Below are positions 24,407-30,648 of a stretch of 64,000 nt of DNA, piece after piece. This stretch comes from Melioribacteraceae bacterium (GTDB lineage: Bacteria > Bacteroidota > Ignavibacteria > Ignavibacteriales > Melioribacteraceae): contig JAEINS010000005.1 of assembly GCA_016342755.1 (NCBI GenBank), positions 62,001-126,000 on the forward strand, given 5' to 3'. Every line of letters starts with the position of its first letter. The stretch's first letter is position 1. The notes under the pieces were generated by a model. It ran no database searches, had not been told where the DNA came from, and saw only the letters and a program-made list of their open reading frames with translations. Position numbers and translations under genes: made by a program.

Positions 24407-25306
24407 ATGAAAATCACCGGAACTTTTTTAGATGAAATAAGTCACGACATCCCTTCTGCTAACTGGGGTAAAGAAGATTGGGCAAATGAATTTAAAGTTA
24501 TGAAAAGTGTTGGCATTGATACTGTGATACTGATCAGATCTGGATATAAGGATAAAATAACATTCAATTCAAAAACTTTAAGTAAACACCAGGCTATGAG
24601 ACCAGCTTATACTGACCTTGTTGATTTATTTTTAAATGAGGCAGAAAAAAATTCAATGGACTTTTATTTTGGCATGTACGATTCTGGTAAATATTGGCAC
24701 GAAGGAAAACATGATAAAGAAATTGATTTAAATCTTGCTCTGGCTGAAGAAGTGATGGAAAAATATGGTCATAGAAAAGCATTTAAAGGCTGGTACTTAA
24801 GTCACGAGTTTGAAGAATACAATGAAGGACAGTTACGTCTTTATGAAAAACTGGCTGTTAGATTAAAAGAATTTAATCAAAGTTCAATTATGATGTCGCC
24901 ATATATAAAAGGCCGCCTCCAGTTTGAAAAACCTATAACTCCGATGGAACATGAAAAAATGTGGTCTCAAATTTTTTCTTCTTTAGAAGGGAAAGTAGAT
25001 ATATGTGCTTTTCAGGACGGTCAGGTGGATTTTCTTGAACTACAGGCATTTATGGAGATTAATAAAAAACTAGCTGATAAATATTCAATTACTTCATGGT
25101 CAAATGTTGAAACCTTTGAACGGGGAATGCCCATAAACTTTTTACCTATAAATTGGAATAATCTGAGATACAAATTAGAAGTGGCAGAAAAAGTAGGTGT
25201 TGATAAAATTATAACATTTGAATTCTCTCATTTTCTAAGTCCGCATTCTGTTTATCCGGCAGCTCACAATTTATTTAACCGATATAAAGAATGGATTACT
25301 AAATAG
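24407..25306 (+). CDS. DUF4434-like TIM-barrel protein
   Basis: The protein has 299 residues and no signal peptide. It begins MKITGTFLDEISHDIPSANW, then KVMKSVGIDTVILIRSGY, FYFGMYDSGKYWHEG, KGWYLSHEFEEYNEGQL and VDICAFQDGQVDF. These are alternating beta-strand and acidic-loop motifs of a glycosidase-like (beta/alpha)8 barrel of the DUF4434 type. Acidic residues in SHEFEE and QDG are candidate active-site groups. It follows AGGA and ends the rightward operon, only 6 bp before the stop of the convergent RRM gene. Its role in glycan breakdown is inferred from fold and context. Confidence 0.65.
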   Translation: MKITGTFLDEISHDIPSANWGKEDWANEFKVMKSVGIDTVILIRSGYKDKITFNSKTLSKHQAMRPAYTDLVDLFLNEAEKNSMDFYFGMYDSGKYWHEGKHDKEIDLNLALAEEVMEKYGHRKAFKGWYLSHEFEEYNEGQLRLYEKLAVRLKEFNQSSIMMSPYIKGRLQFEKPITPMEHEKMWSQIFSSLEGKVDICAFQDGQVDFLELQAFMEINKKLADKYSITSWSNVETFERGMPINFLPINWNNLRYKLEVAEKVGVDKIITFEFSHFLSPHSVYPAAHNLFNRYKEWITK

Positions 25307-25312
25307 AATTAT

Positions 25313-25555
25313 TTAATTAAAAACAGCGGAAGAGGGAAATACACTAATCTCCCTTCCCGCAACAATTTTTCCATCAAGTTCATCTATTGCTTCAAAAGCC
25401 TGCTTTTCTTCCGGCATGCTAATAATTGCCGATGCTCCATAAATATCATTATATTCTGAAAGAATTACATGTTCTACAACACCATATCTTGAAAAATATT
25501 TTTTTAGAATATGTCTGGTAATTTCCCTGGCAATATTTTCAACAATAATTTTCAT
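25313..25555 (-). CDS. RRM RNA-binding protein (short, copy 1)
   Basis: This is an 80-residue single RRM domain. It opens MKIIVENIAREITRHILKKY, corresponding to the RNP2 strand, then VVEHVILSEYNDIYGASAIIS, corresponding to RNP1, and ends ELDGKIVAGREISVFPSSA. It aligns throughout with the product of the adjacent gene at 25667-25912. Both RNP motifs are weakened: Ile replaces the usual Tyr in RNP2 and the RNP1 aromatics are absent. Bacterial RRM proteins of this size bind RNA, often under cold or stress conditions. It lies at the 3' end of a leftward group of small genes. Confidence 0.8.
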   Translation of the reverse strand: MKIIVENIAREITRHILKKYFSRYGVVEHVILSEYNDIYGASAIISMPEEKQAFEAIDELDGKIVAGREISVFPSSAVFN

Positions 25556-25666
25556 ATTCTTCTCATTTAATATTTAAGGTTCCATAATAATCGTAATTAT
25601 AATTATTGCTTTATATCAATAAACTTGAATTGATGTTTTTTAACACAGCTTTAACTGTGCAATTTA

Positions 25667-25912
25667 TTATTCTACCCCTTCCATTACAGATGAGTATACA
25701 GTAATCTGTCTTCCACTTAATTTAGTGCCATTAAGTTTTTCTATAGCTTCCAGTGCCTTCTTATCTTCGGGCATTTCTATTATTGCCATTGCTCCATATT
25801 TATCGAAATATTTAGAAATATGTATAAGTTCTACAAAACCAAACTTTGAGAATAAGTTCTTAATTTCTAACTCTGTAACTTCTGATGATATATTCTCAAC
25901 ATATATTTTCAT
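25667..25912 (-). CDS. RRM RNA-binding protein (short, copy 2)
   Basis: This is an 81-residue single RRM domain: MKIYVENISSEVTELEIKNL (RNP2 with Tyr), FGFVELIHISKYFDKYGAMA (RNP1 region lacking the aromatic pair), then EDKKALEAIEKLNGTKLSGR. It is the tandem duplicate of the gene at 25313-25555 and the better preserved of the two at RNP2. Upstream lie two small genes and then the response-regulator gene with its palindrome, so control by that two-component system is possible. Confidence 0.82.
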   Translation of the reverse strand: MKIYVENISSEVTELEIKNLFSKFGFVELIHISKYFDKYGAMAIIEMPEDKKALEAIEKLNGTKLSGRQITVYSSVMEGVE

Positions 25913-25941
25913 TTAGAACCTCTATCTTTGTTAACTATATC

Positions 25942-26319
25942 TTAATTTTCATCTTCATCAGTTTCTTCATCAGAATTATCTTCTATGAAGATGGAGACTG
26001 ATTTTTCATTACATAAATCGATGCTGTTAATTACATACTCGTTAAAATCTTTATCTTTTACCATTATGTCCCAAAAACATTCTTCATTTAATTCAATATT
26101 TACATACATACTGTCATTCGCTTTTAGAATCTGATCATTTAAATCCAAAGGAATCCACTGCTCTACAGATTCCGCTGAGACTAAAATTTCAACAATATCA
26201 AAATCAGAATTATTGATAATTTTCACTTCAGTATTTAACGATTCTGTTAATAAAAAACTTACAAGACTTAGGGATAAAACCATTAAACAGGCAACTTTTA
26301 CTAATTTGAATTTTTGCAT
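25942..26319 (-). CDS. Small exported acidic protein, unknown function
   Basis: I chose the ATG at 26319 because of the strong AAAGGAGAAC site before it; the longer frame from 26352 would overlap the preceding gene. The product has 125 residues with a hydrophobic N-terminal segment (VKVACLMVLSLSLVSFLLTE) that is a signal peptide or membrane anchor. A small beta-rich domain follows, with a single Cys pair (EECFWDIMVKD ... DLCNEKSV) and a very acidic tail (EDNSDEETDEDEN). I do not recognise the family. The two Cys could form a disulfide outside the cytoplasm. Confidence 0.7.
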   Translation of the reverse strand: MQKFKLVKVACLMVLSLSLVSFLLTESLNTEVKIINNSDFDIVEILVSAESVEQWIPLDLNDQILKANDSMYVNIELNEECFWDIMVKDKDFNEYVINSIDLCNEKSVSIFIEDNSDEETDEDEN

Positions 26320-26348
26320 TTTGTTCTCCTTTGTAAATTTTAATTTTC

Positions 26349-26573
26349 TCAATAAGTTAATTCTTTTTCCAGATTTTGTTTTTTTCGGTTATGAATTTGA
26401 AGCCATGTATCTGCATAATCCCAGCCAGTTACCGGATCAAAAACTTCAACTAATTTTAATTTTTCTTTACTGATACCATAATAATCTCCTAAAAATTTTA
26501 CTACTTCATCACCAGAATCAAAGTTGACGATTTTATTGGATTTTGTAAAAACTTTATAACATTTCTTTTTCAT
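26349..26573 (-). CDS. Small protein, unknown function
   Basis: The frame encodes 74 residues, MKKKCYKVFTKSNKIVNFDS onward, with no signal peptide, predicted mixed alpha/beta and rich in Lys and aromatic residues. It starts 8 bases after CAGGTG. It is the first gene of the leftward small-gene group and lies about 150 bp downstream of the palindrome next to the response-regulator gene, so it is the best candidate direct target. I do not recognise the family. The good ribosome-binding site and operon position support that it is real. Confidence 0.6.
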   Translation of the reverse strand: MKKKCYKVFTKSNKIVNFDSGDEVVKFLGDYYGISKEKLKLVEVFDPVTGWDYADTWLQIHNRKKQNLEKELTY

Positions 26574-26724
26574 TTTTTCACCTGTTGTCTAAATTTTAAA
26601 ATACTTTCAAAAGACAAATATTAGTTGCACAAATCAGATACTTTTTAGAATGTTTAAATCAAATTTCAGTGTTTATTAAAAGAAAGTAAATTACCATATA
26701 GGTGGATTTTTGAGGGACAGACGG

Positions 26725-26744
26725 AATACCCCTTAAGGGGTATT
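26725..26744. promoter_or_regulatory. Perfect 20-bp palindrome with NarL-type 7-2-7 layout
   Basis: AATACCCCTTAAGGGGTATT is a perfect palindrome. Its core reads as heptamer TACCCCT, 2 bp, then the inverted heptamer AGGGGTA. That is the 7-2-7 arrangement of NarL/NarP-type sites (heptamer consensus TACYYMT). It begins immediately after the stop codon of a NarL/LuxR-family response-regulator gene (26746) and lies upstream of the leftward gene starting at 26573. A weaker dyad ACC-N5-GGT sits at 26693-26703. A terminator is less likely because the T-run follows it only on the plus strand, and no rightward gene ends here. Confidence 0.65.
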
Positions 26745-26745
26745 T

Positions 26746-27399
26746 TTAAAGAAGACCGCGTTCGGCTGCATACTTTACAACTTCGGTTGTATTTTTCAGG
26801 TCAAGTTTTCTAATAATATTTTTGCGATGTTTTACAACGGTTGATTCACTTATGAAAAGTTTTCCGGCTATTTCATAACTTTTAAAACCATCAGCAATTA
26901 AACGAATAATTTCTATTTCACGTTTTGAGACGGGTATTTTTTGCGGATTTAAAGGATGATATCTTCTGTGCATTTTTCCTGAATGATACTTAATAAGTTT
27001 ATTTTTCACTTCTTCACAAAAATATTCTCCACCGGCATCCACAATTTTTATGGCAGCTATAAGCTCTTCAATTTCTGAATCTTTGAATAAAAAACCGTTA
27101 ATACCCTCTTCCAGCGCACCAATAATAACATTTTCATCCGAGTGCATTGTAAGCATTATTATTGCTTTTTTATAATTAAGTTCTCTCAATTTCGAAATAG
27201 TTTCTATACCATCCATTTCAGGCATATTATAATCTAGAATAATTACATCAACCGGATTATCCTTTATATATTCAATTAGTTCAAAACCATTAGAAACTTC
27301 AGCAACAATCTGTATAACCTCTTCCTCGCTTAACACTTTTGCAAAACTTGATCTTACCATTCTATGATCATCTGCTAATATTACTTTAATTTTTTCCAT
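26746..27399 (-). CDS. NarL/LuxR-family response regulator
   Basis: The protein has 217 residues. The receiver domain has the acidic pair ADDH, phosphoacceptor Asp56 in VIILDYNMPEMDG, and the Thr and Lys positions in IIMLTMHS and GFLFKDSE. The C-terminal helix-turn-helix reads VSKREIEIIRLIADGFKSYE then ISESTVVKHRKNIIRKL, typical of the LuxR/NarL class. Its start overlaps the end of the kinase gene by 14 bp, so the pair is translationally coupled. The palindrome just after its stop is a plausible binding site for it. Confidence 0.92.
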   Translation of the reverse strand: MEKIKVILADDHRMVRSSFAKVLSEEEVIQIVAEVSNGFELIEYIKDNPVDVIILDYNMPEMDGIETISKLRELNYKKAIIMLTMHSDENVIIGALEEGINGFLFKDSEIEELIAAIKIVDAGGEYFCEEVKNKLIKYHSGKMHRRYHPLNPQKIPVSKREIEIIRLIADGFKSYEIAGKLFISESTVVKHRKNIIRKLDLKNTTEVVKYAAERGLL

Positions 27400-28429
27400 A
27401 ATAGTTTTTCGATATTGGAATATGAAAAATTAATTTTGTGCCTTTGCCGGGCTCAGTTTCTATACTTAAATCTCCGTTTAGCGATTTTACTCTTTCTTTC
27501 ATTCCGGTAATTCCATAACAATGGGATGATCTTTTCTGCTTCTCATTAAATCCTTTTCCGTCATCCTGCACTGATCCGATAATTACATTTTCGTTAAAAT
27601 GCAGCTGTACATTAATTACTTTAGCAGATGCGTGTTTTTTTATGTTTAATAATGATTCCTGAATAATTCTGAATATATTAAGATCAATGTTTTTATCGGT
27701 GTTAATGTATTCCCCAAATACATCCAAATTTACTACGGCGGAACTATTTAGATTATATTTTGATACTAATAACTCAATAGCCTTTGGAAGTCCTTCTTCT
27801 TCAAGAATTACAGGATGTAAAGCCTGAATTAAGGAACGGATATCTTTGCTTGTTTCAAGAATTTTTACTTTAACCTCATCAAGTTTATCAGAATCGTAAC
27901 CCGAATTTTTTTGCACCATATCAAGTTCAAGTTTAGCTAATAATAGTTTCTGAATAATTTCATCGTGTAATTCGCAGGCAATTCTTTTTCTTTCATTCTC
28001 AATCATTTTAAATATTTCAAATGAATTAATTGCGTGAATATTAGATTCAACCTGATGAAATTCTGTGTCTAACGGATCAGAAAATTCTTCAATTATACAG
28101 CAAATTATATAATCACTTTTATCATAAATTGGATATACATTAAATATTATATATTTACCTGTAAAATTACCGGCAAGCAGAGAATTACTTTTAGAACAGA
28201 AAATCGGATTTGTCCGTAAAGTAATTTCTCCTTTTAATACTCTTTCTATTATCTCGCCGTAATCATTTTCAATAAGAAGTTTTTCACCCGTCAGAGAATA
28301 ATTTTCTATTGCACAAATAGATTTGTTCCAATTCATGTTTGTATACATTAATTGGCCTTTATCATTAAACAAAGCTGCCGGTAAGGGCAAATCCCAAAAG
28401 AATTTTTCCTGTTTTATTCTATCAATCAT
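27386..28429 (-). CDS. Sensor histidine kinase (NarX/HPK7 class) with PAS-like input
   Basis: The protein has 347 residues and no membrane segment. Residues of about 10-125 form a PAS-like domain (PLPAALFNDKGQLMYTNMNW, GKYIIFNVYPIYDKSDYII). The HisKA_3 H-box is ERKRIACELHDEIIQKLL and the ATP-binding domain carries N-box-like RIIQESLLNIKKHASA and GSVQDDGKGF, then GITGMKERVKSLNGDLSI. It is a cytoplasmic sensor paired with the overlapping response regulator. It follows the SLC12-like transporter gene by 11 bp, which suggests it senses a state linked to ion balance or redox. The signal is unknown. Confidence 0.9.
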   Translation of the reverse strand: MIDRIKQEKFFWDLPLPAALFNDKGQLMYTNMNWNKSICAIENYSLTGEKLLIENDYGEIIERVLKGEITLRTNPIFCSKSNSLLAGNFTGKYIIFNVYPIYDKSDYIICCIIEEFSDPLDTEFHQVESNIHAINSFEIFKMIENERKRIACELHDEIIQKLLLAKLELDMVQKNSGYDSDKLDEVKVKILETSKDIRSLIQALHPVILEEEGLPKAIELLVSKYNLNSSAVVNLDVFGEYINTDKNIDLNIFRIIQESLLNIKKHASAKVINVQLHFNENVIIGSVQDDGKGFNEKQKRSSHCYGITGMKERVKSLNGDLSIETEPGKGTKLIFHIPISKNYYGKN

Positions 28430-28440
28430 GCAAACTTCTA

Positions 28441-30648
28441 TTAGTAAATATCTTTAACTCCGTTAGCTAAAATAAATAACACATCACCTATATTATCATA
28501 ACCCTGGAATGTTTCCTTTCCTTCATTTTTTAACTGTTCAACTTTAAAACCAATTATTGTTAAACCGGCTTCTCTCGAAGTTTCATTAACAATATCTTTA
28601 AAACTTCTGCTTTCATCTCTTTTAATTATTGAAATATTTTTTTCTGTAATAGGAATTCTGCTTGTAAGAATTAAATCTTTCATTTCATTTTTAATATTTT
28701 CAATTTTAGATTCCTCGCAGACATTAAATATTTTAAGTGAACTATTATGCCACGAAGGATGTCCTAAAATTATATAACTTAAAAGTATCATTAAATTTGC
28801 GTTTTCTTCATCAAGATTTCTGATCCACATATGTATTCCCCGTTCCGGAATAATACTGCGGGATGATGACGCTAATACACATACATCAAAACTTCCGGCC
28901 TGTGTTAGCGATATGTTTTCAATAATAGGCGTAAGTTTATCCTCACTATGTTTTTCATACTCAAAAATAATCATATTATTCTCCATCCCCGATGAACTTG
29001 GCAATTGCAAAACCTGCGCTATTGCAGATGTATACGAAGGAGAAATAATTGTATCTATATACATATTTCCTTTGTGAGTCTGAGTCCGTTTAATAAGATC
29101 ATTTAAAATTTTACGCGATTCCAAATTTGTGGTTGTAGAATAATACCCTTTTGTGAAATGTATGTATGTTCCAAAACCATGTTTGTATGATATCCAGTTC
29201 AATAACTCAAATGCCTTTTCTCTTTCAAAAGAATCTTCCGATATACATACAGCAGAAGGTCTCCAGGTTCCCCGGCTTTTTCGGGACTGTTGTATATAAA
29301 CATGTACATTTCTTATTAATTGAAAAATTGCATTTTGAAAAATAGACTCTAATCCGCCACGTTTTTTGTGATATGTGGAGATAACAAAATAGAGAATTAG
29401 CATTCCTAAAATAGATAAAAACGCGTAAGTCATTTCCATTTTGAACATCAAATAGAAACACATTAAAAAGCCAATAAAAGAGAAATACCATCTCGATTTA
29501 AATGTTGGTCTGTACGAAGGATCGGCACCAAAATGGTGAAGAAACGATATTAGACAGATAGCACCGTAAGTAACCATAAAGAACATTGAAATTATTTTTG
29601 CAACGGCATCAACATCGCCCATAATTACAAAAAGAAAAGCTATTACTGATGTTACAATTGATCCGTTTATTGGTTCGTTTGCGTCACCTTTCCCTTTTGC
29701 GAAAAAACTGTTTAATGATTTTATTGGAAACGATTTATCAACTCCTATTGCCTGAATAGTTCTGGGAGCAACTAATATTGAACCTATAGCACTGGAAATT
29801 GTTGAAGCAGCCAAACCTAAAGGAATAATGAATGCACCGCCAAGCGCAATTTTACTCATTATAAACTGGTCGCTTGATAATGAAAGTTCATCCGCTGATA
29901 TTGATAATTTCCATATTATGAAACCATAAATTATCATTCCCATAACAGTTGCCAGAATTGTTCCCACCGGGATTGATTTTTTAGCATCTTTTAAATCACC
30001 TGATAACCCGACTCCGGCAGTCATTCCTGTAAAGGCCGGGAAAATAATTGCAAACACTATGAAAAAATTATCCGGGTTACGGTAAATAAAATTCGAAAAG
30101 TTAACTGTCTCAAGATCGGTATTTATTGGACCGCCAAGAAAAAACATTGCAAGTGAAATAAATAAAATAGTAACAACTACATATAGCGCGGCAATTCCAA
30201 TATTAGCCCCTTTTTTTATAATCAATATCGATAGAATAAGCATAGCTGGTATACTAACTACCTGTTTAGATAACTGATATCCATAGTCCCTAAGAACCCA
30301 GTCAAAGACCGGTGTAAAAGCCTCGGAAAAAGCAATAACATAGAATGCAACACTTATAGCTTGCGATAGATAAAGCGCAATACCAATTGTGGCTCCTATA
30401 TTAAGTCCGAAAGATCTAGAAATTATAAAATATTCTCCACCGCCTTCAACTCTTCTGTTTGTAGATATTTCGGAAAGTGCCAGTGCAGTAGGCAAGGTTA
30501 CTAAATGACCAATAATAATAATTAAAAATACTCCGTAAAACCCTAATTCACCTATAGCATAACCAAATCTTAAAAAAAGAATAGCTCCTAAAATAGTTGA
30601 GATTGCTGTAAAAAATACAGGAGCGGTTCCTAATCTGTTATTACTCAT
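28441..30648 (-). CDS. APC-superfamily transporter, SLC12/cation-chloride-cotransporter-like
   Basis: The protein has 735 residues. The N-terminal 430 residues hold about 12 transmembrane helices with GTAPVFFTAISTILGAILFL at helix 1 and SEISTNRRVEGGGEYFIISR, as in SLC12-type cotransporters. The last 280 residues are soluble and resemble the SLC12 cytoplasmic domain (RGTWRPSAVCISED, YIDTIISPSYTSAIAQVLQL). Bacterial relatives move K+, Cl- or amino acids. It lies 36 bp after corA and 11 bp before the sensor kinase, in an operon devoted to ion movement. Confidence 0.82.
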   Translation of the reverse strand: MSNNRLGTAPVFFTAISTILGAILFLRFGYAIGELGFYGVFLIIIIGHLVTLPTALALSEISTNRRVEGGGEYFIISRSFGLNIGATIGIALYLSQAISVAFYVIAFSEAFTPVFDWVLRDYGYQLSKQVVSIPAMLILSILIIKKGANIGIAALYVVVTILFISLAMFFLGGPINTDLETVNFSNFIYRNPDNFFIVFAIIFPAFTGMTAGVGLSGDLKDAKKSIPVGTILATVMGMIIYGFIIWKLSISADELSLSSDQFIMSKIALGGAFIIPLGLAASTISSAIGSILVAPRTIQAIGVDKSFPIKSLNSFFAKGKGDANEPINGSIVTSVIAFLFVIMGDVDAVAKIISMFFMVTYGAICLISFLHHFGADPSYRPTFKSRWYFSFIGFLMCFYLMFKMEMTYAFLSILGMLILYFVISTYHKKRGGLESIFQNAIFQLIRNVHVYIQQSRKSRGTWRPSAVCISEDSFEREKAFELLNWISYKHGFGTYIHFTKGYYSTTTNLESRKILNDLIKRTQTHKGNMYIDTIISPSYTSAIAQVLQLPSSSGMENNMIIFEYEKHSEDKLTPIIENISLTQAGSFDVCVLASSSRSIIPERGIHMWIRNLDEENANLMILLSYIILGHPSWHNSSLKIFNVCEESKIENIKNEMKDLILTSRIPITEKNISIIKRDESRSFKDIVNETSREAGLTIIGFKVEQLKNEGKETFQGYDNIGDVLFILANGVKDIY

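Follow-up and report, generated by a model that had tools for sequence, protein, structure and literature searches.

A perfect palindrome beside a NarL-family response regulator gene is probably the operator of a dedicated two-component switch in a Melioribacteraceae bacterium

We analyzed a 64-kb window of a Melioribacteraceae genome (the window being the whole stretch of DNA presented here) and found a perfect 20-bp palindrome directly after the gene for a NarL-family response regulator (RR). On the sequence evidence, we propose with a probability of about 0.78 that the palindrome is the operator of this RR and would act as a dedicated, single-target switch for the next leftward transcription unit. 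We favor a site bound by the neighboring RR because of four properties: (i) its position beside the RR gene, (ii) its dependence on the recognition helix of the RR, (iii) its occurrence in relatives as tandem pairs, and (iv) its similar distance from the following ATG. What the sequences themselves show is a box that is unique in the genome, that recurs next to RRs sharing the helix motif, and whose half-site changes as the helix does.

RESULTS

A unique operator-like palindrome follows the response regulator gene

The palindrome, AATACCCCTTAAGGGGTATT, read directly from the sequence, occupies positions 26725 to 26744 of the window. Matching to boxes in relatives places the core operator box, TACCCC-TTAA-GGGGTA, at 26727 to 26742. 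Because the RR ORF spans 26746 to 27399 on the minus strand, a single base lies between its stop codon and the palindrome, and 151 bp separate the palindrome from the next leftward ORF, which starts at 26573; an earlier note on this DNA had placed the palindrome one base after the stop codon and 150 bp before that gene, in agreement with these coordinates. Written as inverted TACYYMT heptamers with a 2-bp spacer, the sequence TACCCCT-TA-AGGGGTA is exact on both arms, as the note had also claimed for a perfect 7-2-7 palindrome. TACYYMT is the NarL/NarP heptamer consensus (PMC4886647), and both heptamers are those of the engineered Escherichia coli narG -89/-89 site, TACCCCTAAAGGGGTA, used in NarL binding work (PMC4549865). 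A genome scan for TACCCCT-N2-AGGGGTA, a check that the note had suggested, returned the palindrome as the sole occurrence in 4.73 Mb, even with one mismatch allowed. Perfect palindromes with 10-bp arms and no spacer are expected by chance 0.175 times per 64-kb window, and the full 12/12 box did not occur in 2 Mb of simulated sequence. Rfam gave no match at 25000 to 29000.

The genes on either side of the palindrome

The RR (26746 to 27399, minus strand) is, by Pfam and alignments, a NarL/FixJ-family protein with a receiver followed by a GerE/LuxR-type helix-turn-helix (HTH) domain (PF00072, 102.7 bits; PF00196, 61 bits), and as both scores exceed the cut-off, its earlier assignment to the NarL family stands. 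Its recognition helix carries the motif TVVKHRKN, and it is the proposed binder of the box. The receiver residues D10, D11, D56, T84, and K106, which comprise the phospho-acceptor aspartate and the conserved set, are invariant in the alignments. The RR gene overlaps by 14 bp with that of the presumed cognate kinase, a sensor histidine kinase with HisKA_3 and HATPase_c domains (27386 to 28429, minus strand), and relatives have the same kinase-RR gene order. An amino acid permease/SLC12-like transporter gene (28441 to 30648, minus strand) ends 11 bp before the kinase gene and is probably cotranscribed with the two-component genes; a CorA-like gene also lies upstream in the same direction, with the kinase, transporter, and CorA-like genes tightly packed.

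Leftward of the box, four minus-strand genes, spaced about 29 to 111 bp apart, form a putative operon. The first is a 74-aa ORF (26349 to 26573) without a Pfam or NCBIfam match, for which we found no relatives in 164 genomes of the order or in viral contigs. The second (25942 to 26319) also lacks a family match in Pfam and NCBIfam and encodes a small protein, probably secreted, whose N terminus is hydrophobic and signal-like; it has an ATG start at 26319, and the listed ORF opens at a TTG at 26352. The third encodes an RRM protein (25667 to 25912; PF00076) and is followed, after a 111-bp gap, by a gene for a second RRM protein (25313 to 25555; PF00076), the last leftward gene before an opposing gene. 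Each of these neighboring proteins is about 80 aa long, has a single RRM, and scores below the NCBIfam cut-off for an RNA-binding regulator model; the pair apparently arose by a divergent duplication.

The box recurs beside related response regulators

The relatives of the RR are 43 to 47% identical to it and come from other genera of the family or order, its own genus not being represented. We defined a TACCCC-box RR group by two characteristics: (i) the helix TV[V/I]KHRKN, and (ii) a TACCCC-N4-GGGGTA box, matching at 10 or more of its 12 positions, no farther than about 450 bp downstream of the RR stop codon. The RR of the window, with its 12/12 box directly after the stop codon, belongs to this group. 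All seven other TV[V/I]KHRKN RRs (G025, G120, G026, G059, G063, G123, and G009) have a TACCCC-N4-GGGGTA box of at least 10/12, located 7 to 441 bp past the RR stop codon and upstream of the next operon; a first-order simulation gives an expectation of 0.0035 such boxes per 500 bp. No TACCCC box was present within 500 bp downstream in 46 RR loci with other recognition helices. Hence the note's claim of an operator-type site tied to the adjoining RR gains support from the same box beside same-helix RRs in seven genomes, as it does from the terminator analysis below.

Boxes of the relatives are often imperfect (GGGCTA and GGGGGA, for example). Among 13 boxes compared, T1, A2, C5, C6, G12, G13, and A16 are invariant, and C4 and G11 are each kept in 12. 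Since the seventh base of the heptamer and the center vary in relatives, the unit is better written as TACCCC-N4-GGGGTA. Tandem boxes lie exactly 25 bp apart in G025, G026, and G120 and 26 bp apart in G123, and the 25-bp tandem pattern matches only the first three of these loci among 164 genomes, with no matches to a control pattern. The boxes beside the RR in G025 and G026, two per genome, are the sole genome-wide matches at one mismatch. Per-genome counts at one mismatch, compared with controls, gave no evident enrichment across the order, which makes the association a local one, confined to RR genes, rather than part of a wide regulon.

Several observations count against the operator reading. 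There is one perfect box in the window and no clear tandem pair, the only candidate for a second box being an unconvincing half-like TCCCTC at +25; the genes after the box share no homology with those of the relatives; and the RR is just 43 to 47% identical to the other RRs with a box. Two absences reported below, of the TAAAATAGACA element and of the cytochrome, also count against it. In its favor, the RR groups with the TACCCC-class RRs in a tree (support 82/78), but all RRs sharing the box belong to a single clade and so are not wholly independent cases. We also tried to align the promoter region of the window with those of G059 and G063 beyond the box, and the alignment was too weak to use.

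The half-site changes with the recognition helix

NarL contacts bases through K188, V189, and K192, as seen in the NarL-DNA structure. The variable residue of the recognition helix in the RRs studied here aligns with NarL K188. Four RRs have Gly or Ala at this position, with helices TVGKHRKN (G103 and G040), TVGQHRKN (G112), and TVAEHRKN (G038). Downstream of each lies TACCTA-N4-TAGGTA (TTGGTA in G112), 24 to 152 bp after the RR stop codon (loci L161, L162, L177, and L179 for G112, G103, G040, and G038, respectively), and three of the four loci continue after this box with a TAT[A/G]AAAT-like sequence and with a long gene; these genes are of similar type and encode about 290 to 440 aa within the locus. 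One other Gly member, G108, has neither a TACCCC nor a TACCTA box.

Among RRs with a box, eight with Val or Ile, including that of the window and the weaker site of G009, have CC at half-site positions 5 and 6, and four with Gly or Ala have TA. The exact probability of this split is 1/495 if the cases are independent; because the two RR types group apart in the tree (support 82/78 and 87/80), its real weight is lower. We see roughly even odds that these genes form a natural specificity series, in which NarL-like RRs keep a cognate operator beside their own gene, the residue at the NarL K188 position tracks bases 5 and 6 of the half-site (TACCCC for Val/Ile and TACCTA for Gly/Ala), and the targets have been exchanged, being cytochromes in most relatives and orphan and RNA-binding proteins in this genome. 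A literature search for NarL recognition-helix contacts by residue name returned nothing relevant.

We note that RRs with the helix TV[Q/L/S]KHRKN (L180, L185, L169, and L184 in G072, G112, G043, and G103, respectively) have TACC[C/T]ACTTTTAGTACC-like or related TACC half-sites within 100 bp after the RR stop codon. They might represent a third type of operator within this group of regulators.

Boxes in relatives precede multihaem cytochrome operons

A multihaem cytochrome is encoded by the first or second gene of the operon after the box in six of the seven relatives. In G025, G026, and G120, the operon opens with the gene for a 4-CxxCH protein, and the boxes precede its ATG by roughly 105 to 165 bp, a range into which the 151 bp of the window falls. 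Additional multihaem cytochromes are encoded in the same operon, along with an NHL-repeat protein and a product of about 664 aa that has no Pfam match. In G063 and G059, the first gene encodes a receiver-only protein and the next one the same type of cytochrome; in G123 the cytochrome is encoded first; and G009 has PAS-domain and other genes in place of the cytochrome. Directly after the second box in G025, G026, and G120, which represent three genera (L062, L063, and L064), we found a conserved TAAAATAGACA...GG.GTATTT-like stretch (at about L062:8182-8215 and L063:8323-8356), which is probably part of the cytochrome operon promoter. The TAAAATAGACA element is absent after the box in the window. 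TACCCC boxes before cytochrome operons are not described in the titles and abstracts found by full-text searches on Ignavibacteria/Melioribacter.

We found no homologue of the relatives' cytochrome in this genome. Here the most probable target of the operator is the leftward unit starting at 26573, an assignment based on the position of the box and on what the box precedes in relatives. The note's proposal that the two-component system controls the small genes and the RRM genes is accordingly plausible. The best reading is that the operator persisted while the genes under its control changed.

DISCUSSION

We envisage that the neighboring kinase would phosphorylate the RR, whose LuxR-type output domain would then bind TACCCC-N4-GGGGTA as a dimer, with one protomer per half-site. 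The bound RR would control, and most likely activate, the promoter of the leftward unit (the 74-aa ORF, the small secreted-type protein, and the two RRM proteins). The switch would sit between the two-component genes and the genes that it controls, and it would have essentially one target. We infer binding by the RR, its dependence on phosphorylation, activation in preference to repression, and the identity of the target in this genome.

The RR may bind the box with a different output: it could act on the two-component operon itself, by autoregulation, repression, or control of read-through, and a separate promoter within the 151-bp gap may then serve the small genes. The lack of conservation of the downstream genes and of a clear shared core-promoter element in the window is consistent with such an output. 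However, the 3' end of the RR gene is a poor place for autoregulation, and in the relatives read there we saw no comparable box before the kinase gene; their boxes precede the downstream operon. We consider this alternative unlikely.

A hairpin could also form at the palindrome, one base past the RR stop codon, and the site might then serve mainly to terminate the two-component (or an antisense) transcript without any regulator. The minus-strand RNA folds better than shuffled sequences (z = -2.55), and the hairpin ends in a T-run on the plus strand. Nevertheless, an intrinsic terminator consists of a GC-rich hairpin with a T-run behind it on the transcribed strand, and a terminator scan did not list the hairpin on either strand; the minus-strand sequence after it is CCGUCUG, not a U-tract. 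Boxes in relatives can be as far as 441 bp from the RR stop codon, are often imperfect, occur as tandems 25 bp apart, and follow the helix type; such distances, imperfect arms, tandem pairs, and a link to the helix are not expected of a terminator. We therefore rejected termination as the main reading, judging it improbable, and the alternative raised in the earlier note, that the palindrome acts only as a terminator, was not borne out on either strand. The minus-strand hairpin could contribute to termination.

Agreement of the palindrome with the NarL consensus might suggest a true NarXL/NarQP-type nitrate system with a canonical 7-2-7 site. Operators of E. coli NarL/NarP (for example, the engineered narG -89/-89 site, frdA, and napF) likewise have inverted 7-bp half-sites with a 2-bp spacer, the RR is of the same family and HTH class, its best match among solved structures is NarL, and both heptamers coincide with those of the engineered site (PMC4549865). 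However, the RR scores 141.7 bits against the NCBIfam NarL model (cut-off, 250) and 114.9 against NarP (cut-off, 343), and the kinase scores 83.8 against NarX (cut-off, 578). NarL K188, V189, and K192 correspond to V189, K190, and K193 of the RR, so that one of three contact residues is kept, the first two positions being V and K; the helix is TVVKHRKN in the RR and TVKVHVKH in NarL. A degenerate NarL 7-2-7 pattern had two matches in the genome and three for the reversed control, and we accordingly rejected a NarL-like regulon here. Unlike NarL/NarP, the RR would have a single local target, with no genome-wide regulon, and its neighbors are not nitrate genes. Since the scores lie far below the cut-offs, the contact positions differ, and there is no regulon, the RR is not NarL or NarP, and a nitrate system of this type is very improbable. 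The note's claim, if read as NarL/NarP proper, fails for the same reasons (helix STVVKHRKN against STVKVHVKH, and no genome-wide set of sites). Lastly, about 0.18 perfect 20-bp palindromes of some sequence are expected per window by chance, but a nonfunctional palindrome of this origin is scarcely credible given that the half-site recurs beside seven related same-helix RRs and that this genome contains no second copy of the box.

Another parallel to the proposed switch is found among the relatives. The system of G025, G026, and G120, which are from the same family, shares the kinase-RR pair, the helix motif, the box after the RR gene, and its spacing of about 105 to 165 bp before the next ATG; it differs in its paired boxes, spaced by 25 bp, and in having cytochromes as targets, whereas the window has one perfect box and orphan and RRM genes. 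The best NCBIfam matches of the RR and the kinase are MctR and MctS, but with scores far below the curated cut-offs (154 against 300 and 112 against 700), the two proteins are not members of these families.

The proposed two-component switch is ordinary in kind. Its interest lies in the assignment, from sequence alone, of a putative dedicated operator to a two-component system of a little-studied lineage. The same box is likely the switch of the relatives' multihaem cytochrome operons, which possibly serve extracellular electron transfer, and the correlation of helix and half-site offers a ready opportunity to test how NarL-family regulators recognize DNA. In this genome, the reading, if true, would tie a signaling system to RRM RNA-binding proteins. 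As a separate observation, TTCCCCCGAAGGGGTA occurs at four scattered places in G120, on contigs C5, C16, C29, and C32; it appears to be an interspersed palindromic repeat with no relation to the RR box.
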